A program made the translations under genes and the position numbers. 64,000 bases of DNA from Flavicella sediminum (GTDB taxonomy: Bacteria; Bacteroidota; Bacteroidia; Flavobacteriales; Flavobacteriaceae), in assembly GCF_006381105.1 (NCBI RefSeq), contig NZ_VDET01000002.1, forward strand, positions 1,708,123-1,772,122, written 5' to 3'. Each line of letters starts with the position of its first letter. Positions within the stretch are counted from its first letter, which is position 1. Below the pieces are notes generated by a model. The model was not told where the DNA came from. It ran no database searches and saw only the letters and a program-made list of their open reading frames with translations. Below, piece by piece: positions 29,970 to 47,122 of this stretch.

Positions 29970-32900
29970 TTACTTTAAAATAATTTTTTCAGATATGATT
30001 TTGTTGTCAATATTTATTTTTAAGATGTAAATTCCTTTAGGGTAGTTCGCTTTCAAACGAAGCTTGTTTTTGGTGTTCAAAGGTTCCCAAGTATGTATAG
30101 GTTGCCCTAATAAATTATATAGCTGAACAGCGGAAATAGATTTGTTATTTGGATTTTCTATCACAATTTCATTAGAAGACGATACATAATAAATAGCAAG
30201 GCTTTTGTCAACGCTATTAGCTATTGAAAGTTTGTCTTTGGCAGAGAAAGCAAGGCTAAATCTGTTTTCGTAACTTTTTTGCTGTAGGTTTATAGTCGCT
30301 TTATTTTTATTTAAAGTATAGGTTAAACCTGTCTCATGATCTAATAAAATTAAATCTTTGTCGGTTAAATTCCATTCGTCAATAGCTATAGTAATATTCC
30401 CTTCGTAGCCCATTTCAACTCCTATTGGTACTTCTAAATCGTCTGAAATTTCTTGTACACCAGTAATTGCATATTTTTTTTGGTCATCAGAAAATTTCCA
30501 ATAAACATCAGTTTTTCCTACTTCAAATTTAGGAGAATCGTAGCCGTTGTCATACTTAAAAGAGTTTCCTTCTTTGAAAGAAATACCAATTTGACGATGC
30601 ATTTTTATTTGATCATCGTTCAGGTAATCTACTCCCAGTTTAATGATGGGTAAATTCACCGTCAAAGGGCCAAAATTATTTTTCTTATTAGCTTTTTCTT
30701 TTTTAGAGTTTTTAAAGAAGATAGATTCGCTTCCTTCTGTAACAAATTCTCTTTGGCTGTTATTAAAAGTAATAATACCTCCATTTTCTTTACCAGAAAT
30801 AAAAAAGCCTTGGCCTACAGGAATATATGCCTGAGGTACAGAATAAGTTCCTTGGCCGATACCCGGTATGTAGTCATTTGCATTTTCATTAGAAGCAACG
30901 TTATCTGCAGAGACTCCCATAGAAATGTTTCTTGTAGCATAACCACCAATATATCCGCTAGCATTATGACCGCTATTGTTGTTTTCGCTTGAAGAAGCTA
31001 CGCCTGCATGTTGCCAAAAATAGAGCGTACCATACATTGAACTATCATTGTCTTCAATGAATTTTTTTGCATTCAAGGCGGAAGGATAAGGATTTCCGAC
31101 AAGGTAATTTTGATAGCCACCAATTGTTGTGGTTAATTCTCCATCTTTAGGCGTTCCGACAAAAGTATAATTTTGAGCAACTCCAGGTCCTTTAAATACA
31201 AAACCATCTGTTTGTGGAATGATTCCTGTAGAGCCTTTTTGAACCCAATTCGATCTTCCATCTCCGTTTGCATAGGTGTAAAACCAATAGTTTGGAAGGC
31301 TAATAGGGCTTGTTTTACTTCCGTCATAACCGGATATAAAATTAATGTTTAAAGCTGTTGAATTAGCGGATGTATAGGTGCTTCCATCTTTTAGGACACT
31401 TGCTGCATTATACACATTAGACCCCAAGTTGTTTACAGGAGAGCTCATGTAGTTGTATAGGTATTTACTACCAATATCTGAATAGCGATCTATGTATAAT
31501 TTACCTGTTCCATTTAAATTTTTTGACCCCGTATGTGTTTGAATAAACTGTGAGGTACCAGCCAATCTAATTTCTGCATTTGCATTGATCGTCAAGTTAT
31601 CAGCTACCAAAAGCAAGTTGTCTGTAATCGTTAATTTATAACCACTAGTAACTTCAAGTTTACGAGCATTCAATTGCGTAGATAATGTTGTGTTTTGATT
31701 GATAACTACGCTACGTGATTTGTCAGGATAACCATTATCCCAGGCATTGCTAGTTCTAGTTGTCTCGTTTAAATTATGAACTCCCAATCGGATATTAGCG
31801 CTGCTGTTTGCATTGTCAACTTCTGAAATCACTGCGGCATGAGGATGTCTTTCTGTGTAGGGTACAAGGTCATCGTCAACAAAGCTAATCCACTCACTAG
31901 CGGTGTAGGTGTTGTTGTATGATAAAACTTCATCACTTCTAACAGCGGAACTATTATTACTAATATTTGAAAGAACATCAAAACGATTTTCCCATGCTGT
32001 AGTTCCTGTTTCTGATGTAATAATTAGAATATCGTTGGCATCGTCAAAATCTGTAATGTTGTTGTCTGTTATTGGCGTTTCTAAGTGATTTGAAAGGATT
32101 GAATTACTACTGTTTAATAAAACAGATTGTCCGGCAGAAAGTGCTGTGTTTACCAAATAAGTTGAAGTCGGACTAACACCCGTTTGGTCGCCAGATTTAT
32201 TTTTGAAGAGTGCTACAATAAAAGTATTTGTAGGAATTGTTGCAGTACCTGTATTGGTAATTTCTATCCAGCGTTCTGAAGTGTCATAATGGTACACCTG
32301 TGTAAATAATGCTGCTTCATAAAGACTGGTATCTTTAGCGAATATAAAAACATCATAATCTTCTATTTCTCCAGTATCGTAATCAAAGTCGCAAGCTGAG
32401 GTTGGAGTGCCATTGTGTTTTAATGCGATACGCATTCTAGTTTTTCCTTCAGTTGCTGTGGTAGGGATTGCAATATTTGACAGCGTAGCAGTTAATTGAG
32501 TAGGAGGTGTACTTCCGGTAACTTGACTGAAAACCTCTTCACCAGTGTCATCAAAGTCACCGTCATTGTTAAAGTCAATCCAAACAACTAAAGCGACAGT
32601 GTTATAGGTGGCTCTTGAGTAGGTAACAGTTCCGGAAAAAGTTTCTCCTTTGGTTAAGTTTGTGGCTATACCGTTAAAATACTTATAAATAGGGTCGCTA
32701 GAAGTGCTATTATTGTTAATCGTTCCTATAGCTGTATTTGAAATATAATAGTCGCTATCAGGGTTAAGGTGTATGTTGCTAGTGCAATATTCTACGTTTA
32801 AAGTTGTAAAGGTTTCCGTATCAAAAATAGCGCAAGAAGCGTCAACGGCAATTTGAACTTCATATTCCAATCCATCATCCAAACCAGTAAGGTTTATTGT

Positions 32901-34055
32901 CGTTGATGAAGAAGTGGTTTCTATCCAAGTGCCACTGATTGTTGGTTTGTATTTTATTTTATACGTGCTGGTTTCAGTAGAAGACCAAGTTACAATAGCT
33001 GTAGTTTCTGTAATAGAAGATATAGCAATATTACTGATGGTACCTGGGTCTATAATATAAACGTCTTGAGTACTATATACGATGGTGCTACCATTGTCAA
33101 ATGCCCATTCTATGGAATAAGCACCAACTGTGTTAAAAACGGTTGTATCGCTAGTAGTTCCTGTTATTTGTTGTCCACATTGGTAATCTAAAACAGGAGC
33201 AGGAGCTGTGTAAGAACAATATTCCGTAACATCAGGAATTGTTGGCGTCATAAATGTGCCTGAATAATTAAAAACGGTTACGGTAGCGGTACATGAATCT
33301 GTTAGCCCATCCGTATCCTCAACGGTAAAATCAACGGTGTTTGATCCTATATTTTCACAACTAAAAGTGGTTTTACTCAAACTGAAAATTAAATCATTGG
33401 CGTTGTCTACATCGTCAAATGATCCGTTGTTCAGGTCACTAGGGGCTATGGTTACATTTCCAGAAACATCTAGGTATACATCTAAATTTCCAATACAATT
33501 TGCTGTAGGAGGCAATGCAGAAGATATTATATTGATGTTGTAATCCTCAACTTCCCCTTTTTCATAGTTAAGATTACAAGGGTCTATGTCGTAATTGTGT
33601 TTTAAGGCAACTCTCATTCGGGTAAGTCCAATAGTAGCATCGTCAGGAATACTTATTTGAAAGTTTTTTGTAGACGTTTTAGAGCTGGTGTTTCTTCCAA
33701 AGTAGGTGTATGCCAATTCACCACTATCGCTAAAATCTCCGTCTTTATTAAAATCGATCCAAACCTTTAAGTAGACGTCATTGTTTTGAGGGGCGTCATA
33801 AGTTACTGAGGTACTATAGGAAGTATTGGTGTATACATCTGTAGAAACATTATTGTAGAAGGTAAAGTCATTTGCGTGTTTTGTGCTAGAATTATTAATG
33901 TCTTCTAGGTTCACATTAGAAATGAAGAATTTTCCAGCATTATCTGTACCTATGTTTGTAGGGGTACAATAGGTTTGGGCCCATAAAGAATTACTAGCTA
34001 TTAGTACAATATGCAGTATTGTATTAACAGCCAAATACTTAACTATTTTAAACAT
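29970..34055 (-). CDS. Large secreted multidomain protein (GEVED, FN3, T9SS sorting)
   Basis: I start at the ATG at 34055 (MFKIVKYLAVNTIL), not the upstream TTG, giving 1361 residues. After the signal peptide comes a GEVED domain (DFNKDGDFSDSGELAY, EKGEVEDYNINI), an Ig/HYR-like region (about 185-265), a fibronectin type III module (about 340-420, ATIVTWSSTETSTYKIKY), a second GEVED domain (DFNNDGDFDDTGEEVF, TGEIEDYDVFIF), a lamin-tail-like segment (about 580-680), a long beta-rich region, and a T9SS type A sorting domain ending in KIISEKIILK. It should be exported across the outer membrane and displayed; an adhesive or matrix role is inferred. It is transcribed alone. Confidence 0.88.
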   Translation of the reverse strand: MFKIVKYLAVNTILHIVLIASNSLWAQTYCTPTNIGTDNAGKFFISNVNLEDINNSSTKHANDFTFYNNVSTDVYTNTSYSTSVTYDAPQNNDVYLKVWIDFNKDGDFSDSGELAYTYFGRNTSSKTSTKNFQISIPDDATIGLTRMRVALKHNYDIDPCNLNYEKGEVEDYNINIISSALPPTANCIGNLDVYLDVSGNVTIAPSDLNNGSFDDVDNANDLIFSLSKTTFSCENIGSNTVDFTVEDTDGLTDSCTATVTVFNYSGTFMTPTIPDVTEYCSYTAPAPVLDYQCGQQITGTTSDTTVFNTVGAYSIEWAFDNGSTIVYSTQDVYIIDPGTISNIAISSITETTAIVTWSSTETSTYKIKYKPTISGTWIETTSSSTTINLTGLDDGLEYEVQIAVDASCAIFDTETFTTLNVEYCTSNIHLNPDSDYYISNTAIGTINNNSTSSDPIYKYFNGIATNLTKGETFSGTVTYSRATYNTVALVVWIDFNNDGDFDDTGEEVFSQVTGSTPPTQLTATLSNIAIPTTATEGKTRMRIALKHNGTPTSACDFDYDTGEIEDYDVFIFAKDTSLYEAALFTQVYHYDTSERWIEITNTGTATIPTNTFIVALFKNKSGDQTGVSPTSTYLVNTALSAGQSVLLNSSNSILSNHLETPITDNNITDFDDANDILIITSETGTTAWENRFDVLSNISNNSSAVRSDEVLSYNNTYTASEWISFVDDDLVPYTERHPHAAVISEVDNANSSANIRLGVHNLNETTRTSNAWDNGYPDKSRSVVINQNTTLSTQLNARKLEVTSGYKLTITDNLLLVADNLTINANAEIRLAGTSQFIQTHTGSKNLNGTGKLYIDRYSDIGSKYLYNYMSSPVNNLGSNVYNAASVLKDGSTYTSANSTALNINFISGYDGSKTSPISLPNYWFYTYANGDGRSNWVQKGSTGIIPQTDGFVFKGPGVAQNYTFVGTPKDGELTTTIGGYQNYLVGNPYPSALNAKKFIEDNDSSMYGTLYFWQHAGVASSSENNNSGHNASGYIGGYATRNISMGVSADNVASNENANDYIPGIGQGTYSVPQAYIPVGQGFFISGKENGGIITFNNSQREFVTEGSESIFFKNSKKEKANKKNNFGPLTVNLPIIKLGVDYLNDDQIKMHRQIGISFKEGNSFKYDNGYDSPKFEVGKTDVYWKFSDDQKKYAITGVQEISDDLEVPIGVEMGYEGNITIAIDEWNLTDKDLILLDHETGLTYTLNKNKATINLQQKSYENRFSLAFSAKDKLSIANSVDKSLAIYYVSSSNEIVIENPNNKSISAVQLYNLLGQPIHTWEPLNTKNKLRLKANYPKGIYILKINIDNKIISEKIILK

Positions 34056-34206
34056 AATTATCAATCGATTAAATTAATAACGTAAAAATATTCTTGGGGG
34101 TAGTTTTTAAGAGCTTTACTTTATTACAATAATAGTGCCTAAAAAGGGAAAAAGCATTTCTGCATTGTTAATTTTTCGCTTTCTAGACATATGTTTAGTA
34201 AAATTA

Positions 34207-34277
34207 ACAATTCAGCCTATTAAAACAACAATTCAGATTTAAAAAATTTAACTAGGTAGACCATTTTCTGATTTTTG
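34207..34277 (+). promoter_or_regulatory. LytTR-type operator and promoter of the TonB receptor gene
   Basis: Two identical 9-bp direct repeats ACAATTCAG lie at 34207-34215 and 34228-34236, separated by 12 bp (21-bp period). This is the size and spacing known for LytTR-domain binding sites such as those of AgrA. A -7-like GATTTTTG lies at 34270-34277, 42 bases from the start of the second repeat, with no clear -33 element. The promoter is therefore probably activator-dependent. The same layout precedes the gene at 36566. Confidence 0.75.
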
Positions 34278-34300
34278 TTTCCTTAAAAACAGGAAAAGTC

Positions 34301-36457
34301 ATGAAAAAAATCTTATTTATTTTGTTCTTAGTTTTAGCAGGAGCACAAACTTATTGTCAGACTAAAATTAACGGAAATGTTGTTGATGTAAAAGGAAACC
34401 CTATTGTTGGTGTCAATATTTATTTAGAAGGAACCTATGATGGAACAATGTCTGACGAAAATGGAAGTTTTGAGTTTTCAACTTCGGAAACTGGGACTCA
34501 AAAATTAAGGTGTTCCTTTATTTCTTATGAAACGAAGATTATTTTAAAAAAAGTTTCTGAAATGAAGGGGCTAAAAATAAAACTACGAGAAGATGTAAGC
34601 AGTTTAGATGCTGTGGTGCTTGCAGCGGGAACTTTTAATGCAGGGGATAATTCTAAAGTAACCGCATTAAAACCTTTAGATGTTGTAACCACAGCAAGTG
34701 CATTAGGAGATCCAATTGCTGCTTTTCAAACGATGCCTGGAACGTCTACCGTAGCTGAAGATGGACGGCTTTTTGTAAGGGGAGGAACGGCAGAGGAAAC
34801 TCAGATTTTTATAGATGGTATTCGTGTTTTTACACCCTATGCGGCTTCTGCTAATAATACGCCAACTAGAGGAAGGTATTCTCCTTTTTTGTTTGATGGA
34901 ATGACTTTTTCAACAGGGGGTTATTCGGCAGAATATGGACAAGCTTTATCGGGTGTTTTGTTGTTAAATACTATAAATACACCAGAACAAGAAAAAACAG
35001 ATATTGGCATTATGAGTGTAGGGGGAGCTGTTGGAAATACGCAAATTTGGTGTGCAAATTCTTTAAGTGTCAATACTTCTTATATAAACCTAAAACCTTA
35101 TTTAAACGTTTTTGAAGATCGAAATAAATGGGTACAGCCTTTTCAGGTTGTGGCTGGTGAAGCTGTTTATCGGCGTTCATTTTCTAATGGTTTGTTAAAA
35201 TTATACACGGCCTTTGATAGTACTAATTTTGAGTTAATTCAAGAAGATATCAATGTGGAAGAAGGCATTTCGTTTAAATTGAAAAATCATAATTTTTACC
35301 TTAATTCTTCCTATAAAGGCGTTTTGAGTGCCAATTGGTCTGTATTGGCAGGACTTAGCTTTACTGCGGCAAATAGTGCATATGCTATTTCAAAAAGTGA
35401 AATAGAAAACAAGGAAGAATCGATACATGCAAAATTAAAATTCAACCGTTTTTTTAGCAATCGGTTTCAAGTAAGTTTTGGTGCAGATTATTTTCTAACT
35501 GATTTTGATGAGTTTTATAAGGAAGAACATATTTCAGAAGTAGCTTATGGTTTTCAAAATAAATTTGGTGCGGTGTATGGAGAGTTCAATGTATTCTTTT
35601 CCAAATCCTTGGCTTTAAAGGGAGGGATAAGAGCTGGCTATCATCGTTTTTTTGAAAGATTAAAAATTTCACCAAGAGTTTCTTTGGCGTATAAAACAGC
35701 AGAAAATTCACAAGTTTCATTGGCCTATGGCGATTTTTATCAAAATCCGACGAATGCAATTTTAAAATTTGAGCAGGATTTGAAAACTCCAAAATCACAG
35801 CATTATATTGTTAACTATCAATACAATAATGATGGTAAAATTTTACGGACAGAGCTGTATGCTAAAAAGTATTTGAATTTGGTGAAATACGATACGGAAT
35901 TGCCGCAATACAATAGCCATTATACTTCCAACGGTACGGGTTATGCAAAAGGATTGGATGTTTTTTGGCGAGATAATAAGAGTATAAAAAATGTAGATTA
36001 TTGGTTTAGTTATTCTTATTTGGACAGCCAGCGAGATTTTAAAAATTATGAAAAAAAAGCACAGCCCAATTTTGTAAACAAACACAATATTTCATTAGTC
36101 GCTAAATACTGGTTAGAAGATTGGAAAAGTCAGGTGGGGTTGAGTTATAATTTTGCTTCTGGAAGAACCTATACAGATCCGAACAAACAAGGTTTTTTAA
36201 ATCAGAAAACAAAAGCCTACCATAGTCTGAGTTTGAATTGGGCGTATTTAATTTCTCAGCAAAAGATTTTGTACTTCTCTTTAAACAATGCCTTGGGAAC
36301 AAAAAACATCAATGGCTATCAGTTTGCAAACAATGCCAATGATTTTGGACAATTTGAAAAAAGAGCCTTGCGGCCAGCAGCTGATCGTTTCTTTTTTGTA
36401 GGATTCTTTTGGACGATAAGTGAAAAAGGTACGGACAATCAACTAGATAAACTTTAA
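34301..36457 (+). CDS. TonB-dependent outer-membrane receptor
   Basis: This 718-residue protein has a signal peptide (MKKILFILFLVLAGAQTYCQ), a carboxypeptidase-regulatory-like domain (about 22-105, GNVVDVKGNPIVGVNIYLEG), a plug domain (about 130-230, ADDGR-like EDGRLFVRGGTAEETQIFID and SAEYGQALSGVLLLNT), and a beta-barrel to the C-terminal aromatic residues. It is short for a SusC-type receptor, and no SusD gene is adjacent, so glycan import is not implied. The substrate is unknown. It is preceded by a LytTR-type site and followed by the regulator operon carrying the same site. Confidence 0.9.
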   Translation: MKKILFILFLVLAGAQTYCQTKINGNVVDVKGNPIVGVNIYLEGTYDGTMSDENGSFEFSTSETGTQKLRCSFISYETKIILKKVSEMKGLKIKLREDVSSLDAVVLAAGTFNAGDNSKVTALKPLDVVTTASALGDPIAAFQTMPGTSTVAEDGRLFVRGGTAEETQIFIDGIRVFTPYAASANNTPTRGRYSPFLFDGMTFSTGGYSAEYGQALSGVLLLNTINTPEQEKTDIGIMSVGGAVGNTQIWCANSLSVNTSYINLKPYLNVFEDRNKWVQPFQVVAGEAVYRRSFSNGLLKLYTAFDSTNFELIQEDINVEEGISFKLKNHNFYLNSSYKGVLSANWSVLAGLSFTAANSAYAISKSEIENKEESIHAKLKFNRFFSNRFQVSFGADYFLTDFDEFYKEEHISEVAYGFQNKFGAVYGEFNVFFSKSLALKGGIRAGYHRFFERLKISPRVSLAYKTAENSQVSLAYGDFYQNPTNAILKFEQDLKTPKSQHYIVNYQYNNDGKILRTELYAKKYLNLVKYDTELPQYNSHYTSNGTGYAKGLDVFWRDNKSIKNVDYWFSYSYLDSQRDFKNYEKKAQPNFVNKHNISLVAKYWLEDWKSQVGLSYNFASGRTYTDPNKQGFLNQKTKAYHSLSLNWAYLISQQKILYFSLNNALGTKNINGYQFANNANDFGQFEKRALRPAADRFFFVGFFWTISEKGTDNQLDKL

Positions 36458-36470
36458 AAATAATAGCGCT

Positions 36471-36541
36471 ACAATTCAGTAACAGAATACGACAGTTCAG
36501 TGGCTTCTTTTTTATAAAAAACAGTTTCTATTGGATATTTG
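36471..36541 (+). promoter_or_regulatory. LytTR-type operator and promoter of the 36.6-39.6 kb operon
   Basis: Direct repeats ACAATTCAG (36471-36479) and ACAGTTCAG (36492-36500) are separated by 12 bp. The -7-like GATATTTG lies at 36534-36541, again 42 bases from the start of the second repeat, exactly as upstream of the TonB receptor. As the operon encodes a LytTR regulator, autoregulation is likely. Confidence 0.75.
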
Positions 36542-36565
36542 CCTAACAATTAAAAATAATAGATC

Positions 36566-37191: not shown

Positions 37192-38505
37192 ATGCATAGA
37201 TTATTGAAAAACTTATTATTGACATTTATAATTGGAGTTGTTGCTTTTGTAACAAGTAATTATTTTTTTGGAAAATTTGAATTTGCAAGCACCAAAGACT
37301 TATGGATAGATTTTGGAATGAATCAGTTGTTTTCTTTTGTAATAGGTTTTTCTAATCTTTATTTCTTTTATTATTTAGAACAAAGAACTTGGAAAGAAAA
37401 TGCTCCTTGGAGGCGCGTTATAACCGGGGTATTGGGTTCTGTTGTAATTACAATTATCTGCTTGTTTTTACTTCGACTATTTGGGGTTGTTTATGTAAAC
37501 AATGTGAGTTTTCTTGATTTTTTAGCAAATGAAAAATTAAGGTATTATACCTTCGGTGTATGGATTACACTTAGTATTGTGATTACTTTTCATGTGATTT
37601 ATTTCTATAAAAAGAATCAGGAAAGAAAAATAAAAGAATCTCAAATTGTAGCGAAAACAGAAACAGCAAAATTTGAATCCTTAAAGAATCAATTAGATCC
37701 TCATTTTTTGTTTAATAGTTTAAATGTTCTGACTTCCTTAATAGAGGAGAGTCCGAAAAAGGCAGAAAAATTCACGACAAAATTATCCAAGGTATATCGA
37801 TATGTTCTGGAGCAAAAGGACAAAGATTTAATATCCTTGGAGGAAGAGTTGAGGTTTGCAAAATCGTATATGGAATTGTTGCAGATGCGTTTTGAAGATG
37901 CATTGCATTTTGAACTTCCACAGGAAATTAGCAATTCGGAATTAAAAATTGTGCCTTTGTCATTGCAATTGTTATTGGAAAATGCGGTAAAACACAACGT
38001 CATTACTTCTAAAAATCCACTGACCATAAAAATTTATGAATCGTTTAATTATTTGGTGGTCGAAAATAATTGTAGCCCTAAAACGTCTATAGAAAAAAGT
38101 ACAAAAGTAGGATTAAAGAATATAAAAAATAGGTATGAATTGATTTCAAAAGATCAAGTTGAAATTCATCATGATGAGAAATTATTTAAAGTGAAATTAC
38201 CGCTTTTAACTCAAAAAATTAAAAAAATGGAAACAAATTATATAAGCGATAGCAACAAGTATTTAAAAGCCAAAAAACGGGTTGACGAATTGAAAGGATT
38301 TTATTGGAGTTTGGCTTCCTATATTGTGGTGATTCCGTTTTTAGCATTTATTAATTACAGTACTTACTGGGGTTATAAATGGTTTTATTATCCAATGTGC
38401 GGATGGGGAGTTGGAATTTTAATTCAAGCTATTTCTGTTTTTTTAATTGGAAATGGATGGGAAGAAAGGAAGATTAAAGAACTTATGAATAAAGATAAAT
38501 ACTAA
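37192..38505 (+). CDS. LytS-type sensor histidine kinase fused to a C-terminal 2TM domain
   Basis: This 437-residue protein has four N-terminal helices (about 5-25, 42-62, 78-102, 117-140), then a His_kinase domain with phospho-acceptor H171 in NQLDPHFLFNSLN, and an ATPase region (LQLLLENAVKHNV, VGLKNIKNRYELI) to about residue 342. A second membrane unit follows from M346: RVDELKGFYWSLASYIVV, a second helix, and GNGWEERKIKELM. This tail is a 2TM domain, paralogous to the next gene product. The M346 position looks like an old gene start, suggesting that a separate 2TM gene became fused. The partner is the LytTR regulator two genes downstream. Confidence 0.9.
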   Translation: MHRLLKNLLLTFIIGVVAFVTSNYFFGKFEFASTKDLWIDFGMNQLFSFVIGFSNLYFFYYLEQRTWKENAPWRRVITGVLGSVVITIICLFLLRLFGVVYVNNVSFLDFLANEKLRYYTFGVWITLSIVITFHVIYFYKKNQERKIKESQIVAKTETAKFESLKNQLDPHFLFNSLNVLTSLIEESPKKAEKFTTKLSKVYRYVLEQKDKDLISLEEELRFAKSYMELLQMRFEDALHFELPQEISNSELKIVPLSLQLLLENAVKHNVITSKNPLTIKIYESFNYLVVENNCSPKTSIEKSTKVGLKNIKNRYELISKDQVEIHHDEKLFKVKLPLLTQKIKKMETNYISDSNKYLKAKKRVDELKGFYWSLASYIVVIPFLAFINYSTYWGYKWFYYPMCGWGVGILIQAISVFLIGNGWEERKIKELMNKDKY

Positions 38506-38508
38506 ATT

Positions 38509-38820
38509 ATGGAAGCAGAATATTTAGAAGAAGAACGTTATTTAAGAGCTCAAAAACAAGTCAAAAAGTTGAAAGGGTTTTACTGGCATTTATTTTGGTA
38601 TTTGGCGGTAAATATTTGGATGACATTGCAACGAATAAATTTTGAAGTGTTTACCGAAGAAGGCATAAACAAAACGCTTTTTGAATTCGAAATTTATGCG
38701 ACTTGGTTTTTTTGGGGAATTGGAATTGTTTTTCATGGAATTCATGTCCTTGGTAAAAACGTAAGATTTACTAAGGAGTGGGAGGAAAGGAAAATTAAAG
38801 AATTTATGGATAAAGAATAG
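38509..38820 (+). CDS. 2TM domain protein
   Basis: This 103-residue protein has two transmembrane helices between basic, charged ends: QVKKLKGFYWHLFWYLAV, then FFWGIGIVFHGIHVLG, then WEERKIKEFMDKE. It matches the C-terminal extension of the preceding kinase along its full length, so the two arose by duplication. Proteins of this family often accompany LytTR regulators in Flavobacteriia; their function is unknown. It starts 3 bases after the kinase stop codon. Confidence 0.85.
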   Translation: MEAEYLEEERYLRAQKQVKKLKGFYWHLFWYLAVNIWMTLQRINFEVFTEEGINKTLFEFEIYATWFFWGIGIVFHGIHVLGKNVRFTKEWEERKIKEFMDKE

Positions 38821-38842: not shown

Positions 38843-39598
38843 ATGAAAATTATTATTATAGAAGATGAAAAACCTTCCGCCAGAAGGCTAACCAGAATGC
38901 TAAAAGAAATAGGCATTGAAGTAGAAACGATGCTGCACTCCGTTTCGGAGTCCATAGAGTGGTTTCAAAACAACGCACATCCTGATTTAATTTTGTTAGA
39001 TATTCAATTATCAGATGGTATTTCTTTTGAGATTTTTGAAGAAATTTCTGTAGACAGTGCCATTATTTTTACAACGGCATATGATGAATATGCCTTAAAA
39101 GCATTTAAACTAAACAGCATTGATTATTTATTGAAACCAATTGATGAGGAAGAATTATTTGTGGCCATTGAGAAGTTTAAAACCAATCAGTTGGAAAAAC
39201 AATCCTTGCACGTAGATTTAAATCAGATTCGAAAATTACTGGTCAATCCTTTGGAAAAAACCTATAAAAAACGTTTTACCGTAAAACTGGGGCAGCATTT
39301 AAAATTGGTAGATGTTGAGCGTATTGAATGTTTTTACAGTGAGAATAAAGGAACCTATTTGTTTACAAAAGAAGGCCGAGCCTATTTAATAGATGCGTCT
39401 TTAGAAGATTTGGACTTGCAGTTAGATCCAAGTCAGTTTTTTAGAGTAAACCGTAAGTTTTATGTGAATATCACTGCAATTAAAGATATTGTATCGTACA
39501 CAAATAGCCGCTTACAATTACTGCTTTTTGCCTATGCTGAAAAAGAAATAATAGTAAGTAGAGAGAAGGTAAGATCTTTTAAAAATTGGATTGATTAA
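38843..39598 (+). CDS. LytTR-family response regulator
   Basis: This 251-residue regulator has a receiver domain (1-120) with phospho-acceptor D53 in LILLDIQLSDG, acidic pocket IIEDE and IIFTTAYDEYALKAF, and a LytTR DNA-binding domain (about 143-251; VKLGQHLKLVDVERIECFYS, FFRVNRKFYVNITAI). It is predicted to bind the ACA(A/G)TTCAG repeats before 34301 and 36566. Its stop overlaps that of the convergent kinase gene within TTAA (39595-39598). Confidence 0.93.
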   Translation: MKIIIIEDEKPSARRLTRMLKEIGIEVETMLHSVSESIEWFQNNAHPDLILLDIQLSDGISFEIFEEISVDSAIIFTTAYDEYALKAFKLNSIDYLLKPIDEEELFVAIEKFKTNQLEKQSLHVDLNQIRKLLVNPLEKTYKKRFTVKLGQHLKLVDVERIECFYSENKGTYLFTKEGRAYLIDASLEDLDLQLDPSQFFRVNRKFYVNITAIKDIVSYTNSRLQLLLFAYAEKEIIVSREKVRSFKNWID

Positions 39599-40515
39599 TT
39601 GTTTGTAGGAAGTACAACCGTTACTTTGGTGCCTTTTTTTAAAGAAGTTTCAATTTCTAATTTTCCGTTTTGCAATTCTAAATATTGAATGGAAGTCTTG
39701 ATGCCAAATCCAGTCCCCACTTCATTATTAGTTCCTTGTGTAGAAAACCATTCTTTACTTTTTGTAATCGTATCTAGATGTGCATCGCTGATACCTATAC
39801 CATTGTCTTCAATACTTATTCGAATTTCCTTTTCAGTTTTTTGAGTATAAAAATAAATGTGTCCTCCCTTTGGCGTGAATTTTATAGCGTTGTAATACAG
39901 GTTTCTAAGCGTAAAACCCAAAGCTTCTTTGTCGGTGGTAATCCTAAAATCAGTTATCTGTGTCTCTAATTCTTGATTTTTTGAAATTCTTGTTTCTTCA
40001 TAAATTTCAATAGAATTCATGATTAATTCTTTTAAATTGAATTCTGTGGGAATGACAGGACTATTGTCTATTTGGTTTTTAGACCATTGCAATAAATCAT
40101 CTAAAAATAAGAGTAAGTGATTTACTTTATTAGATAAGTTTTGTAGGTATTTTAAATCTTCTTTGGCAAATAAATTTTTTTGAACATCTTGTAAAATTTC
40201 CACATAACCTTTTACGATAGATAACGGGCCTCTAATGTCGTGTGCAATTATTGAAAATAATTTGTTATTAAGTTCATTTAATTTTTCCAATTCAATTTTT
40301 TGCTGGTATATTTTATTGAGGTGTTTTTGTGCAATGAGGGAAATTGGAAATGAAACAATAAAAGGTGCTCCAATAGCAAGGTATAAGCCTTGATTGTAAT
40401 TGACTAAATGGAAAAAATAATGAAAAACATTATAAATAATTAGCGATGCAATAATTGAAAATAAGGAGACTATATAGGGTCGGTAAAATTTTGCGGGAAT
40501 GGAATTTTTAAACAT
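39595..40515 (-). CDS. Sensor histidine kinase (HisKA type)
   Basis: This 306-residue kinase has two N-terminal helices (about 12-36 and 43-63), a short coiled coil, HisKA with H92 in IIAHDIRGPLSIVKGY, and HATPase_c motifs (LRNLYYNAIKFTPKGG, IEDNGIGIS, GTGFGIKTSIQYLELQ). There is almost no extracytoplasmic region, so it may sense within the membrane or the cytoplasm. It is convergent with the LytTR operon and has no adjacent partner of its own. Its type (HisKA) differs from that of the LytS kinase, so cross-talk is not implied. Confidence 0.9.
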   Translation of the reverse strand: MFKNSIPAKFYRPYIVSLFSIIASLIIYNVFHYFFHLVNYNQGLYLAIGAPFIVSFPISLIAQKHLNKIYQQKIELEKLNELNNKLFSIIAHDIRGPLSIVKGYVEILQDVQKNLFAKEDLKYLQNLSNKVNHLLLFLDDLLQWSKNQIDNSPVIPTEFNLKELIMNSIEIYEETRISKNQELETQITDFRITTDKEALGFTLRNLYYNAIKFTPKGGHIYFYTQKTEKEIRISIEDNGIGISDAHLDTITKSKEWFSTQGTNNEVGTGFGIKTSIQYLELQNGKLEIETSLKKGTKVTVVLPTNN

Positions 40516-40774: not shown

Positions 40775-43700
40775 ATGAAAACAAAACTACTTTTATTAAT
40801 AATTCTTTGTTCAAGTCTAAGTTTATATGCGAATACTGTGTATAGAGTGAAAGAGAAAATGAAGCCCTTTGATGAAACTATTGCTATTCCAAATGCCAAT
40901 TTTGAACAAGCTTTAATTGATTTAGGTTATGATACCAATGGTTTAAATGGAAATATATTAAAAAGTGAGGCTGAAGCTATTGTAAATTTAAACATTTCAA
41001 GAAAGGAAATTTCTGATTTAACGGGCTTGTCAAATTTTATTGCTTTAGAGAATTTGAACATATCTTATAATGATCTGAGTTCTTTAGATTTGTCTAATAA
41101 TAAGAAATTACTTGTTGTAGAGTGCAACAATAATAAATTAACAGTGCTAGATGTAAGTGATCTTTTGAATTTGCAAAAATTGTATTGTTATAACAATCAG
41201 CTTGCATATTTAGATGTCAGTAAAAATATAGCTTTATCTTCTTTATCATGCGGTACTAATCCATTAGAGAACTTAAATGTTAAAAATGGAAACAATAAAA
41301 ATTTCTCTTTTTATAGTTCGTTTATGGCAAGTCCTTCTTGTATAAAAGTGGATGATGCACAGTGGAGCGAAGCCAATTGGAGCAAGTCTGGAAATAGTAA
41401 TTTTAGTGAACATTGTAGTGATGGTGGGAATACATATGTGCCAGATGATAATTTGGAACAAGCCTTAATAGATTTAGGATATGATTCGGGAGGCGAATTA
41501 GATAATTTTGTACCCACGGAAGAAATAGTAAATATCACAAGTTTAGATCTTTCTAATAAAAATATAAAATCACTTCAAGGCTTAAAAAGTTTTACAGCAT
41601 TGAAGAATCTAAACTGTTCAAACAATCTTTTAGATTATGATACTAATTATACTATTGCACAACATATCCCTACTACTCAATTAGAAAGTTTAGACGTGTC
41701 TTTTAATTTATTAACAAAATCGTTTAAGGCTGAGTATTTTACAAGTTTAAAAACGTTAAATTGTTCAAACAATCAAATAGAAACAATTATTCTTAGAGGA
41801 ACTAATAATCTTGAGGTTTTTAAATGTAATAATAATAAAATTTCATTTATAACTTTAGATGAAAAGGGGGTATTTGAGTCGTTAGTAAGCTTTGATGGTT
41901 CTTATAATCTATTAGAAGGATTTCATGTTGCTTTCCCTTCAGAAAATTTTAGTGAATTAAGGTGTACTTCAAGTTTGTTACAATCAATAGATATTAAAAA
42001 CGGTAACAACCAGAATTTAAACATATTTGAAATTACAGAAAACCCAAATTTAATTTGTGTTCAGGTTGATGATTATGAATGGAGTACGAGTAATTGGGTT
42101 AAGGATGATACAACCGATTTTAGTGAAGACTGTACTTTGGGTAGTGTGTCGACAGATTTTGAGGCTTATTTAATAGAAAAAGGCTATGATAAAATAGCAG
42201 ACAATAAGTTATTGATTAGTAAGGTAAATGAGTTAACCTATTTTGAGGTGTTGCAATCAAACTTAACTTCATTGATTGGAGCAAGTGGTTTGAAATACTT
42301 TACAGGTTTAAATAAGCTTGTCGTGTTAGGGAATCCTAATCTAGTCACTTTGGATACTAAGGAATTAATCGGTTTGAAAACATTAGATTGTTCTGAAAAT
42401 CCAAAATTAGTCGCGCTAACTTTACCTGACTTTAGTACGAATCTTGTCAGTTTAAATTGTTATGCAAATAAGCTTAATTCGTTAAATGTTTTTCGTTATT
42501 CAAATTTGTACGAGTTGCAATGTCAGAAAAACTACATTTCTAACTTAGATGTATCAAACAATCGCAAACTGGGGATACTTGCCTGTAACAATAATAATTT
42601 ATCGACCTTAGATATTGCAAACAATGGTTTGTTGAAATCTATTTATTGTTATGCTAATAATATAGAGTCTCTTCATTTAAATAATAAAACACAACTTGAA
42701 ACTTTACATTGTTCATCTAATCCTTTAGGGAACTTAGATTTGAGTACAAATATAAATTTGTTTCAATTGTATGCAGAAGGCTTGCAAATGACATCAATTG
42801 ATTTGAATAAAAATACGAAACTAGGAATACTGTCTGTTGGGTATAATGAATTGTTGGAATTAGATGTTACAAATAATCTCTCATTACGAGAGTTAGATTG
42901 TAGCAATAATAAAATAGAAGATCTAGACCTGTCTAAAAACGCACTTTTAACAAGTTTAAATTGTAGTTCAAATTTGCTAAAGAGTCTAAATGCAAAAAAT
43001 GGAAATAACCATAATATTATTTTTGAAGACGGTTACAATAGTAATGGCTATCTGTTTGAAACTAGGGGGAATATGGATTTACGATGTGTTCAGGTAGATA
43101 ATGCTGCTTTTTCTAGCGAAAAGTTCACATTTGTTGATGCCAATACTGCTTTTAATGAAGATTGTAATTATCCAACATACACTTATGTTCCCGATACTAA
43201 TTTTGAACAAGTGCTAATTAATCAGGGATATGATGATGTTTTGGATGATTATGTTCTTACAGAAAATATTCGAACAGTAACGAACTTAACAATTTCAGCT
43301 AACACTATTTCCGATTTAACCGGAATTGAAAATTTTGAAGCATTAAGTTTGTTAGATTGTGCTGATAATCAAATTTCTTCCTTGGATGTAAGTGCCAATA
43401 AAAATTTGAAGTATTTGATCTGTTACAATAACAATTTGAGCAACTTGATTTTAAGCGAAAGTCTAGAAAGTGTTTTTTGTAATAAGAATAAAATTTCGAA
43501 TTTAAATACAAGTTCTCTTAAGGAATTGAAAGAATTGAAATGTCAAGATAATTTGCTAGAATCCATAGATCTTACAACTAATTTAAAACTTGAAACTTTA
43601 GAATGTGGTAACAATCCTTTAACAATATTAGATGTTTCTGCAAATTTAGCTTTGGAATCATTGTTTGGCTATAATACAAATATTGAGTCACTAGATCTAA

Positions 43701-46700
43701 CCAATAATGGAAATCTAGCGAAGCTAGTTGTGCCGGAAAATAAAAATTTGAGTATGCTAAAAGTTAATAATGGAAATAACCTAAACTTTACCCAGTTTTT
43801 AATAACTCAAAACCCAAATTTGTCATGTGTTCAAGTCGACAATGTGACTTATGCAAATACAAGTTTAACAAATAAAGATTCACAGACAACTTATAGCTTG
43901 AATTGTACGGCAACAATTCTAATGCCAGATTCAAACTTTGAACAAGCCTTAATAGATTTAGGATATGATTCCAATGGCTTAAATGGAAACATATTAAAAA
44001 GTGATGCGGAAGCTGTTATTGATTTAAATGTTTCAAGTAAAAATATAAGCGATCTAACAGGAATTGAAGGTTTTACAGCTTTAAAAGTTTTATATGTTCT
44101 GGGTAACAATTTAACTAGTTTGGATGTAAGTAAGAATAGAGAATTAGTTGATTTACGTTGTCATAGTAATAATTTAACAAGCTTAGACATTAGTAATAAT
44201 TTAAAATTAAACTACTTAAATGCATCCGGAAATAGTTTAACTAATTTAGATGTTAGCACAAATGAGCTTCTAAAGTTTATATATGTTTTCAATAATAAAT
44301 TGACAAGCTTAGATGTAAGTTCAACTAGGAACTTAGAGAGATTACAGGTTTATCAAAATGATTTAACAAGTATAAATTTAAGTGGTCTTATAAGTTTAGA
44401 GCAGTTGCATGTTCATGATAATGAGCTTACAAGCATAGATATAAGCTCAACTATTAATTTAGAGGAGTTACATGCAAGTCAAAATGTTTTATCAAGTTTA
44501 GACGTAAGTTCAAATACCCAATTAACAGTTATAAATATATTCAATAATAGTTTGTCGAATTTGAATTTAAATGAGAATGTAGGTTTAAAGAATTTATCTG
44601 TTGCAGGAAACAATTTAACGAGTTTAGATGTAAGCGCAAATATTGTGCTTGAGGAATTAAATATTCAAAATAATAGTTTATCTAGTTTAGATGTAAGTTT
44701 AAATACCAATTTAGAATTTTTAGCCCTAGCCAATAATAATAGTTTAACAAAACTAAATGTTGCCAATGGAAACAATAGTAATTTCACGCTTTTTTCTGCC
44801 ACGGGTAATCCAAACTTAACTTGTGTAGAGGTAGATGATGTAGCTTACGCAACTACAAACTGGACCAATGTTGATGATGCTGCTGTTTTTAGTACAGATT
44901 GTTATAACCCAGCAGTTATAGAAATTCCGGATGCTAATTTTGAGCAAGCTTTAATAAATCATGGGTACGATACAAATGGTTTAAATGGAAATATTTTAAA
45001 AAGTGAAGCAGAAGCTGTCGTATATATAAATTCAAATAAGAATGAGAATACTCCAGAATCAGAAAAAATAATTGATTTAACGGGTATAGAAGGATTTATA
45101 AACTTGAACCAATTAATTTTAGAATACAATAGTTTAGCAACAGTGGATTTTTCAAATAATTCAAAATTAACTTCCATTACCATCAATAATAATCAATTAA
45201 CAACTATAAATGTTTCTGAAAATTCTAAATTAACTAGCTTAATAGTGTCTAATAATTTGCTAACAACTATTGATGTCTCTAAAAATCAGAAATTATTTAC
45301 TATTTGGGCTGATAATAATCAGATCTCTACGATCAATTTATCAAATAATTTAGAACTAGAGCAATTGGGGCTTTCTGGAAATAATTTTTCAGAAATCGAC
45401 TTTTCAAAAAATTTGAGATTGAAAAGATTTGATATGTCTAATAATAAGCTTGTGAATTTAGATGTTAGAAATAATCCAGATCTTACTTTAGTATGGATAA
45501 GTGACAACCAATTAAAAAGCTTAGATTTTTCAGGGCATACAAAACTAGAACGATTAAAAGCCGCAAACAACAACTTAGGCTCCCTGAATATAAAAAATGG
45601 AAACAATACAATTGTAAGCGAATTTGAACTACAAAACAATCCAAACTTAACTTGTGTTGAGGTAGATGATGTTAATTACGCAATTACAAACTGGACCAAT
45701 ATTGATGATGCTAAAGTCTATAATACAGATTGTTCTTTTCCTGATTTAGTATATATTCCAGATGCTAATTTGAAGGCAGCTTTGTTAGCAGATAGTCAGA
45801 TAAACACAAATGGAGATGATGAAATTCAGGTTTCAGAAGCTGAAGCTGTTACAGGTTTTTTAACTGGAAATGATTTGGGTATTTCTGATTTAACGGGTGT
45901 TGAAGCTTTTGTAAATATTACCGGTTTAAGTATCAATAACAATAACTTAACCAGTATTGATCTTTCTAAAAACACAAAACTTACGTTTTTAGCTTGTGCA
46001 AATAACAACCTAAAAAGTTTAGATGTTACCAACAATACCTTGCTAGAAACCCTGGGTTGTTACGACAATCAAATAAAATATTTAGACCTGAGCAATTCGA
46101 AAACGCTCTACAATTTTAGTGCACAAAGAAATGAATTGGAGTATTTGAATATCAGAAATGGAAATAACAATAGAATGAGTGACTTCTATGTAAAAGACAA
46201 CCCAAATTTAGAATGTATTCAAGTAGATGACGAAACCTGGAGTACTACTTATTGGGGAAGTACAAAAGATGCCAGTGCAAGTTTTAGTAACGATTGTGGA
46301 GGTGTTTGGGAAGTGTATACCGAGGATGAAGGATTGGAGACAGCTTTGGTTTCGTTAGCGGTTTTAGATGAAAACAGTGATGGAAAAATAACCTATGAAG
46401 AGGCGCAAGCTTTTGTGGGCGACTTAGATTTAAGTGGTAAAAATATTACGGATATTACTGGTTTGGCTGCTTTTTCAAACGCTGCTAGTATCAATATTTC
46501 TGGAAATAGCATTACAGATATCAATAAGTTGTTGAATAGTAAATCCGTTACTGTTACGGCTAAAAGTACAGGTAAAAAACAATACAGAGTTAGAGATAGC
46601 AGCAATGGAATAAAAAAGCTGAATGTTTCTAATAATTTAATAAAAGAAATCGATATTTCTCAAGTAACAAGTATTACAGAATTGTTGGCTGCCAATAACA

Positions 46701-47122
46701 GGCTCGTTTATGTCAACCTCAATAATGGTGTAAATGAAAGTTTGCTAAATTTAGATGTTACCGGAAATTCAGAATTATCGTGTATTCAAGTAGATAATGT
46801 TGCGAATGCTTCATCAAATATAAATTGGAAAAAAGATGTTGCAGCTAGTTACAACACAAATTGTCAAAAAGGTCCACTTTCTGTAACTAATTTGTTAAAA
46901 GAACATCTGCAAATTTATCCTAATCCGGTGTCTCAAAATTTCACTATAAAATTGACAGCTGGACTCGTTTTTGAAAAAGCTGAGGTGTATAGTTTGGTAG
47001 GTGCAAAAGTTGCATCTTCTGAATTGGAAACGGTAGATGTAGGTCAATTGCCAAGCGGGATTTATATTGTTAAAATCAAAACCGATCAAGGGCTAATCGT
47101 TTCAAAAATTAGTAAGCGTTAA
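40775..47122 (+). CDS. Giant secreted leucine-rich-repeat protein with T9SS sorting domain
   Basis: This 2115-residue protein has a signal peptide (MKTKLLLLIILCSSLSLYAN), then eight paralogous modules of about 185-345 residues starting near 40886, 41438, 42150, 43184, 43918, 44920, 45751 and 46309. Each typical module opens with IPDANFEQALIDLGYD plus an EF-hand-like loop (DTNGLNGNILKSEAEA; best in module 8, DENSDGKITYEE). It continues with short LRRs of about 21 residues (LTSLDVSxNxxLxxL) and closes with NPNLTCVEVDDxxYA and a final cysteine. A T9SS type A domain (LQIYPNPVSQNFTIKL, ending VSKISKR) finishes it. The LRRs resemble internalin-type repeats. It should be a surface-displayed or released binding protein; the target is unknown. 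It is monocistronic. Confidence 0.92.
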   Translation: MKTKLLLLIILCSSLSLYANTVYRVKEKMKPFDETIAIPNANFEQALIDLGYDTNGLNGNILKSEAEAIVNLNISRKEISDLTGLSNFIALENLNISYNDLSSLDLSNNKKLLVVECNNNKLTVLDVSDLLNLQKLYCYNNQLAYLDVSKNIALSSLSCGTNPLENLNVKNGNNKNFSFYSSFMASPSCIKVDDAQWSEANWSKSGNSNFSEHCSDGGNTYVPDDNLEQALIDLGYDSGGELDNFVPTEEIVNITSLDLSNKNIKSLQGLKSFTALKNLNCSNNLLDYDTNYTIAQHIPTTQLESLDVSFNLLTKSFKAEYFTSLKTLNCSNNQIETIILRGTNNLEVFKCNNNKISFITLDEKGVFESLVSFDGSYNLLEGFHVAFPSENFSELRCTSSLLQSIDIKNGNNQNLNIFEITENPNLICVQVDDYEWSTSNWVKDDTTDFSEDCTLGSVSTDFEAYLIEKGYDKIADNKLLISKVNELTYFEVLQSNLTSLIGASGLKYFTGLNKLVVLGNPNLVTLDTKELIGLKTLDCSENPKLVALTLPDFSTNLVSLNCYANKLNSLNVFRYSNLYELQCQKNYISNLDVSNNRKLGILACNNNNLSTLDIANNGLLKSIYCYANNIESLHLNNKTQLETLHCSSNPLGNLDLSTNINLFQLYAEGLQMTSIDLNKNTKLGILSVGYNELLELDVTNNLSLRELDCSNNKIEDLDLSKNALLTSLNCSSNLLKSLNAKNGNNHNIIFEDGYNSNGYLFETRGNMDLRCVQVDNAAFSSEKFTFVDANTAFNEDCNYPTYTYVPDTNFEQVLINQGYDDVLDDYVLTENIRTVTNLTISANTISDLTGIENFEALSLLDCADNQISSLDVSANKNLKYLICYNNNLSNLILSESLESVFCNKNKISNLNTSSLKELKELKCQDNLLESIDLTTNLKLETLECGNNPLTILDVSANLALESLFGYNTNIESLDLTNNGNLAKLVVPENKNLSMLKVNNGNNLNFTQFLITQNPNLSCVQVDNVTYANTSLTNKDSQTTYSLNCTATILMPDSNFEQALIDLGYDSNGLNGNILKSDAEAVIDLNVSSKNISDLTGIEGFTALKVLYVLGNNLTSLDVSKNRELVDLRCHSNNLTSLDISNNLKLNYLNASGNSLTNLDVSTNELLKFIYVFNNKLTSLDVSSTRNLERLQVYQNDLTSINLSGLISLEQLHVHDNELTSIDISSTINLEELHASQNVLSSLDVSSNTQLTVINIFNNSLSNLNLNENVGLKNLSVAGNNLTSLDVSANIVLEELNIQNNSLSSLDVSLNTNLEFLALANNNSLTKLNVANGNNSNFTLFSATGNPNLTCVEVDDVAYATTNWTNVDDAAVFSTDCYNPAVIEIPDANFEQALINHGYDTNGLNGNILKSEAEAVVYINSNKNENTPESEKIIDLTGIEGFINLNQLILEYNSLATVDFSNNSKLTSITINNNQLTTINVSENSKLTSLIVSNNLLTTIDVSKNQKLFTIWADNNQISTINLSNNLELEQLGLSGNNFSEIDFSKNLRLKRFDMSNNKLVNLDVRNNPDLTLVWISDNQLKSLDFSGHTKLERLKAANNNLGSLNIKNGNNTIVSEFELQNNPNLTCVEVDDVNYAITNWTNIDDAKVYNTDCSFPDLVYIPDANLKAALLADSQINTNGDDEIQVSEAEAVTGFLTGNDLGISDLTGVEAFVNITGLSINNNNLTSIDLSKNTKLTFLACANNNLKSLDVTNNTLLETLGCYDNQIKYLDLSNSKTLYNFSAQRNELEYLNIRNGNNNRMSDFYVKDNPNLECIQVDDETWSTTYWGSTKDASASFSNDCGGVWEVYTEDEGLETALVSLAVLDENSDGKITYEEAQAFVGDLDLSGKNITDITGLAAFSNAASINISGNSITDINKLLNSKSVTVTAKSTGKKQYRVRDSSNGIKKLNVSNNLIKEIDISQVTSITELLAANNRLVYVNLNNGVNESLLNLDVTGNSELSCIQVDNVANASSNINWKKDVAASYNTNCQKGPLSVTNLLKEHLQIYPNPVSQNFTIKLTAGLVFEKAEVYSLVGAKVASSELETVDVGQLPSGIYIVKIKTDQGLIVSKISKR
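40886..46880 (+). repeat. Eight tandem coding modules within the LRR gene
   Basis: Module lengths are about 552, 712, 1034, 734, 1002, 831, 558 and 570 bases. The difference is mainly the number of LRRs. Modules 1, 5 and 6 share the head NGLNGNILKSEAEA or a near copy and are closest at the DNA level; modules 2-4 have diverged heads; modules 7 and 8 have other EF-hand-like heads. This indicates repeated duplication with recent copies among 1, 5 and 6. Confidence 0.85.

Follow-up and report, generated by a model that had tools for sequence, protein, structure and literature searches.

What is the role of two pairs of 9-bp direct repeats that stand upstream of an outer-membrane protein (OMP) gene and of a sensor operon in Flavicella sediminum? 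We addressed this question in a stretch of 64,000 nt, the whole of which we call the window (assembly GCF_006381105.1, contig NZ_VDET01000002.1, positions 1,708,123–1,772,122 of the forward strand). A preliminary description of this DNA had reported two operators of LytTR type, ACAATTCAG-N12-ACAATTCAG at 34207–34236 and ACAATTCAG-N12-ACAGTTCAG at 36471–36500, each with a -7 promoter box whose first base lies 42 bases beyond that of the second repeat. Both pairs were recovered with 0 mismatches, and the boxes (GATTTTTG at 34270, GATATTTG at 36534) lie where they had been placed. The 9-12-9 layout also fits the 9–11 nt repeats, 11–13 nt apart, that the available text of PMC4847170 gives for LytTR sites. 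The -33 element, which had been described as absent, is missing in the sense that there is no TTG; however, both sites carry TTT at -35 to -33.

The sites precede the two units of a cassette that encodes an OMP and, in the second unit, a TPR-like protein, a LytS-type kinase with a C-terminal 2TM domain, a standalone 2TM protein and a LytTR regulator (Table 1). The regulator matched PF00072 (E 2.3e-15) and PF04397 (E 1.5e-20), both above the cut-off, and the genome holds six LytTR genes in all. From repeat 1 to the start codon there are 94 and 95 bases at the two window sites, in agreement with the distances from repeat 1 to the TPR start in relatives (commonest 95, median 98). From the sequence and its context, we consider it very probable that both sites serve as operators for the linked LytTR regulator, which would activate the OMP gene and its own operon.

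Several neighbouring genes were also recorded in the window. A HisKA/HATPase kinase gene (39595–40515, minus strand) is convergent with the regulator gene and overlaps its end by 4 bases. A gene for a 1364-aa GEVED / Por_Secre_tail protein (29970–34064, minus strand) diverges from site 1 and has the intergenic region in common with it. Farther downstream, a 2115-aa protein (40775–47122, plus strand) appears by eye, from its translation, to contain many leucine-rich-type repeats and to end in a C-terminal tail resembling those of secreted Bacteroidota proteins.

Table 1 Operator and promoter elements and cassette genes in the window (positions in the window; promoter numbering relative to the predicted start).
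Feature	Position	Strand	Remarks
Operator 1, repeat 1, ACAATTCAG	34207..34215	+	About -75 to -67
Operator 1, repeat 2, ACAATTCAG	34228..34236	+	12-bp spacer before it
Site 1, -33-region TTT	34247..34249	+	About -35 to -33; from sequence and column profile
Site 1, -7 box, GATTTTTG	34270..34277	+	42 from repeat 2 start; TAnnTTTG with first base replaced
OMP, CarbopepD_reg_2 + TonB plug, 718 aa	34301..36457	+	Behind site 1; proposed first target
Operator 2, repeat 1, ACAATTCAG	36471..36479	+	From sequence and footprint
Operator 2, repeat 2, ACAGTTCAG	36492..36500	+	From sequence and footprint
Site 2, -33-region T6 run	36508..36513	+	About -38 to -33; TTT at 36511–36513
Site 2, -7 box, GATATTTG	36534..36541	+	42 from repeat 2 start; predicted start near 36546
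TPR-like protein, 206 aa	36566..37186	+	TPR_19 match under curated cut-off; opens sensor operon
LytS-type histidine kinase, His_kinase PF06580 + C-terminal 2TM domain	37192..38505	+	
Standalone 2TM protein	38509..38820	+	Own operator in some relatives
Receiver + LytTR response regulator	38843..39598	+	Proposed binder of both operators

Conservation of the paired repeats

The element is deeply conserved across Flavobacteriaceae, with a spacing that is kept nearly to the base. The TPR protein had a match in 160 of 299 family genomes, and we fetched 140 stretches around it from 159 relatives' genomes, omitting some on short contigs and the weakest matches. The stretches measured 6.6–19.9 kb (130 of them 12.0–12.2 kb) and amounted to 1.68 Mb. 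The TPR, kinase, 2TM and regulator genes follow one another in that order at 124 of the 140 loci; the other stretches miss part of the cassette. Half-sites were scored against ACANTTC[AG][GT] (16 positions), a pattern shaped after ~30 loci whose genomes remain among the 140; the offset of 42 had been set beforehand in the preliminary description.

Within 350 bases before the TPR start, a score of at least 14 was reached at a gap of 12 in 90 of the 140 loci, compared with at most seven for each of the remaining gaps between 6 and 19, and the full score of 16 was found in 45 loci at gap 12 vs. none at other gaps. Over the 140 loci as a whole, a gap of 12 gave 266 gene-strand pairs vs. 9 in the opposite orientation, and gaps of 6–11 and 13–19 gave at most 20 and 12 pairs on the respective strands. 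When the score was raised to at least 15, gap 12 still gave 198 gene-strand and 3 opposite-strand pairs (at most 2 at other gaps). A second look at 80 loci from named organisms (Winogradskyella, Maribacter, Flavobacterium, Polaribacter, and others), a set that overlaps the first, showed a site in 79 and the offset of 42 at 107 of 113 sites; gap 12 accounted for 113 gene-strand and 8 opposite-strand pairs, compared with at most 11 and 9 for the eight other gaps tested.

A gene-strand site was present in 137 of the 140 loci, a count of relatives that share ancestry and not of independent events. The 266 sites were distributed before the TPR gene (91), before the OMP gene (74), before the gene preceding TPR (43; DUF2141 in the three tested, L012, L209, and L219), some 2–3 kb downstream (43), and elsewhere (15). 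The downstream sites precede standalone 2TM-like genes, identified by eye, and operators stand before such genes and at unlinked loci in addition to the two places first described. At one locus (L123), ~2.0–2.9 kb past the TPR start, three consecutive 2TM-like genes each have an operator and a promoter of this type to themselves. Counted by locus, the element is conserved upstream of orthologues of both units: the TPR-unit site was found at 132 of 140 loci, the OMP site at 73 of the 75 with a located OMP start, and both at 70 of these 75. No TPR-unit site reached the threshold at eight loci; seven of them carry a 13-of-16 version in the usual place, and the eighth, L110, has none.

The question of whether such a motif is frequent at random was examined with shuffled and reversed patterns. 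In the window, the pair pattern with up to three mismatches gave two matches, both at 0 mismatches, and 100 dinucleotide shuffles of the window gave 0.28 matches on average, two matches being reached in 2 of the 100. In the whole genome (G000; 4,581,197 bases in 77 contigs), exact pairs occurred twice, vs. 0 for the reversed control; with up to two mismatches there were 3 matches (two exact, one with 2 mismatches) and 16 for the control. The composite of pair and -7 box, at up to three mismatches, returned no site in this genome beyond the two in the window, both with 0 mismatches, and the reversed control returned 3. Since the control equals or exceeds the real count at loose matching, it is exactness and not number that marks the sites, and the loose-match controls are uninformative either way on chance. 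Family-wide, the motif is not frequent at random: the exact pair was found at 22 places in 18 of 299 genomes (reversed control 0), and the composite with up to two mismatches gave 285 matches in 94 of 120 family genomes, vs. 12 for the control (counted from the table).

It could still be argued that the similarity is chance or the functionless inheritance of nearby sequence, given an AT-rich genome, related species, and the common loose matches of the reversed pattern in the genome itself. We rejected a chance origin on the gap, strand, and offset controls together with the family-wide reversed-pattern controls. The specificity of gap, strand, and -7 offset amid filler that is less conserved than the operator and promoter elements, and the recurrence before other genes at unlinked places, leave this explanation as a whole exceedingly improbable. 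As a separate observation on the filler, three loci (L173, L193, and L194) contain GCTTTCGCGAAAGC palindromes in front of the TPR gene, in the stretch that separates the operator from the -7 region.

Promoter geometry and proposed mode of action

For the promoters we used the 251 classified sites (the 266 minus the 15 of class 'other'). At 201 of these, a box of the form xAxxTTTG begins at an offset of exactly 42 bases from the first base of repeat 2; offset 43 was seen twice, and ten other offsets gave 15 in all. The 50 sites without a TTTG box at 42 comprise 34 with xAxxTTTA and 16 with neither, so that 235 promoters carry one of the two boxes at +63 from the start of repeat 1. In Bacteroidota, the sigma-A -7 box is TAnnTTTG at -12 to -5 according to the available text on the F. 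psychrophilum start map (PMC9723704). When our boxes are set at -12 to -5, the first bases of repeats 1 and 2 fall at -75 and -54, respectively. By this predicted start, the operator spans about -75 to -46, just upstream of the -33 region, with a T-run at about -37 to -33. The predicted +1 base is A or G in 90% of the 235 promoters, which serves as an internal check on the placement of the -7 box. At window site 1, the predicted +1 base is C.

Two features of these promoters go beyond the preliminary description, namely an imperfect -7 box and the T-run in the -33 region. T occupies -35 in 98% of the 235 promoters and TTT occupies -35 to -33 in 153; TTG starts at -35 in only 9, and anywhere from -37 to -32 in 30. 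At -12, where the consensus has T, we found G in 49%, C in 35%, and T in 12%, and the canonical TAnnTTTG in 6 of 235, compared with T as the first base of 175 of 364 background intergenic NAnnTTTG boxes from the same loci. T at -12 tends to be paired with A at -5 (23/29), other -12 bases with G (195/206). A strict either/or rule for the two faults was rejected, being uneven across classes, and is retained as a tendency: p was 2e-18 for all cassette promoters, 3e-7 for the 2TM class, 0.017 before TPR, and 1.0 before OMP. The 76 further sites included 6 canonical boxes and 11 with both faults (p 0.047). Taken together, the imperfect -7 box and the rarity of TTG around -33 can be read as built-in activator dependence.

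In the mechanism that we infer from the observed sites, their geometry, conservation, and gene context, a signal would pass through the kinase and lead to phosphorylation of the regulator encoded at 38843. The phosphorylated regulator would occupy both 9-bp repeats in head-to-tail fashion, on a single face of the DNA (a period of 21 bp) and centred near -60. From there it would recruit sigma-A RNA polymerase to a promoter with built-in imperfections, which mostly has no TTG near -33 and in nearly all cases carries a wrong base in its -7 box. Repeat 2 and this box would be separated, start to start, by 42 bp, or four turns of the helix. The predicted output is expression of the OMP gene, as a separate target, and of the regulator's own operon (TPR, kinase, 2TM, and regulator), i.e., positive autoregulation. 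In relatives, the same module also stands before additional genes, a good part of which encode envelope-type proteins.

The same regulator could instead act as a repressor, its upstream binding holding the promoters down until a signal arrives. There is a precedent in PlnD of L. plantarum, a LytTR repressor that binds 9-12-9 sites which it shares with the activator PlnC (available text of PMC2714321). Nonetheless, we regard repression as unlikely here: the operator, at about -75 to -46, lies upstream of the promoter elements and not over them, and promoters that are imperfect at -7 and mostly devoid of TTG near -33 are what is expected under activator dependence.

Going further along the line of activation, we tentatively suggest, as a possibility somewhat short of an even chance, that these are an undescribed class of strictly activator-dependent promoters, in which the two repeats, the T-run, and the -7 box fall on a 21-bp grid (0, 21, about 42, and 63) and the -7 box is kept sub-consensus. 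Selection might hold the box about one step under consensus, through either a wrong base at -12 or T at -12 with a wrong base at -5. The module might control an envelope regulon of OMP, TPR, DUF2141, head-GIN/Toastrack lipoprotein, and 2TM genes, and the 2TM protein, which is of the same Pfam family as the C-terminal hairpin of the kinase, could be a feedback inhibitor of that kinase.

Candidate regulator and range of the regulon

Linkage and co-occurrence make the regulator encoded at 38843 in the cassette the likely, candidate binder of both operators. Among 120 genomes, the composite is carried by 92 of the 94 with at least two 2TM copies and by 2 of the 26 with fewer (Fisher, 9e-21), a co-occurrence that partly mirrors the presence of the locus itself, as genomes without the locus are mostly small. 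In the two exceptions with at least two 2TM copies (G011 and G094), versions scoring 13 of 16 were found, their -7 box in place, and the 2TM positions put these versions before a standalone 2TM gene and before the kinase gene. The LytTR residues K169, Y172, R179, and Y219 (numbered as in the window protein) are present in all 123 regulator orthologues found and in none of the five host paralogues. A PDB sequence search with the LytTR half returned a marginal match alone (3d6w, E 0.036); AgrA was absent from the best 60 of 100 PDB matches, and no contact mapping to AgrA was obtained.

With six LytTR genes in the genome, and binding by the cassette regulator being a prediction, the binder might be one of the other five LytTR proteins or a regulator unrelated to them. 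We judge this very unlikely, considering that across genomes the element goes together with the 2TM/kinase cassette and that the genome's two exact sites, its only ones, adjoin this cassette. Operators of this type were also sought at the six LytTR loci of the genome (9-mers at least 7/9 alike, 21 apart, with xAxxTTTG at +63); the lone match at a paralogue locus (L009), a 7-of-9 self-repeat unlike the consensus, was rejected.

If the cassette regulator is the binder, its reach in relatives would extend beyond the cassette to a small regulon. We picked by eye, among the matches listed, 40 stretches away from TPR with 47 sites. The genes behind these sites, again among the matches listed, were DUF2141-like (15), OMP (10), head-GIN (9), and kinase (3) genes, together with two for ABC-ATPase-like proteins, of which one was tested, and five single genes, including two of DUF2306 type (one above and one below the cut-off) and one for a serine-hydrolase fold protein. 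A three-member group behind such operators (L237, L241, and L263) encodes proteins that look membrane-anchored, and the member tested (L241) belongs to the Beta-lactamase family (PF00144). In four genomes (L231, L232, L233, and L234), DUF2141 and head-GIN sites 6.3–6.7 kb apart form a second conserved locus. Head-GIN corresponds to DUF2807, which the available text of PMC11237479 assigns to the PSP/Lia envelope-stress families as part of their Toastrack group, and it is because of this link that we propose the label of an envelope regulon.

At class level, a scan with up to one mismatch matched 11 of 198 genomes, vs. 1 for the control, and 6 of the 11 lie outside Flavobacteriaceae. Of the outside matches, two (f16) lie in front of an OMP gene with the domain make-up seen here, and one (f53) lies in front of a 2TM gene. 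Three others (family f40) were set aside, as the genes that follow were by eye unlike the regulon, or there were none. These three genomes share a related element, ACC[AG]TTCAT-N12-ACAGTTC[AG]G (L358, L359, and L360).

Relation to known LytTR systems

The kind of operator described here is already known. Its own sequence, the -7 promoter class, and the regulon were not found in the accessible portions of the open-licence PMC literature, and those of PMC10197871, PMC7440613, PMC5552118, and PMC10057207 contain no description of the present operator or regulon. Likewise, no operator or regulon for such a LytTR regulator in Flavobacteriaceae was found in the open-access papers searched. What the comparison provides is a precise operator-promoter rule that can be used in searches and has hundreds of instances, together with a candidate regulator, for target genes that are mostly of unknown function and tied to envelope-stress families. 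It also offers a testable idea of how Bacteroidota promoters become activator-dependent.

To our knowledge, the LytTR Regulatory System of the S. mutans type is a two-gene system without a kinase, and our cassette, with its kinase gene and receiver domain, falls outside it. As far as the available passages of PMC6193735 describe them, HdrRM and BrsRM of S. mutans have repeats mostly 12 bp apart a short way upstream of the -35 and positive autoregulation of the operon, but they pair the LytTR regulator with a membrane inhibitor protein, in contrast to the receiver-LytTR regulator and LytS-type kinase found here. The Bacteroides 'LRS-like' operons covered in the same passages have 11-bp repeats 11 bp apart, unlike the present 9-12-9 arrangement.

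A LytS-type kinase with a LytTR regulator is also found in YpdA/YpdB and BtsS/BtsR of E. coli, which differ in phylum and in promoter type. The YpdB repeat GGCATTTCAT (available text of PMC4847170) includes CATTTCAT, which also lies inside the ACATTTCAT half-site seen in relatives of the window's genome. The pyruvate-responsive YpdB/BtsR targets are the transport proteins YjiY and YhjX in the accessible portion of PMC5552118, whereas the targets here are others. According to the text available from PMC4847170, LytTR sites have a layout in common and no common consensus.

There is also a likeness with AgrA and PlnC/PlnD, which, like our sites, use two direct repeats upstream of the promoter (PMC4227749 and PMC2714321, as available in part); PlnC/PlnD share the 9-bp repeats and 12-bp spacer as well (same text of PMC2714321). 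Such 9-bp repeats, 12-bp spacers, and positive autoregulation through LytTR operators are known from the available parts of PMC6193735 and PMC2714321. LytTR activator sites lie just upstream of the -35 region in the passages at hand from PMC6193735, PMC4227749, and PMC2714321, and the present operator, by its predicted start, is likewise just upstream of the -33 region. In contrast to AgrA and PlnC/PlnD, the present half-sites are of their own kind, with ACAATTCAT-C and ACAGTTCGG-T as the commonest pair, and in place of -35/-10 promoters ours resemble the Bacteroidota -7 type, with an offset of 42 that is kept to the base. AgrA repeats also lie near -60, yet the AgrA promoters are weakened by a suboptimal spacer length (available text of PMC4227749), whereas in the present promoters the fault is in the -7 box.
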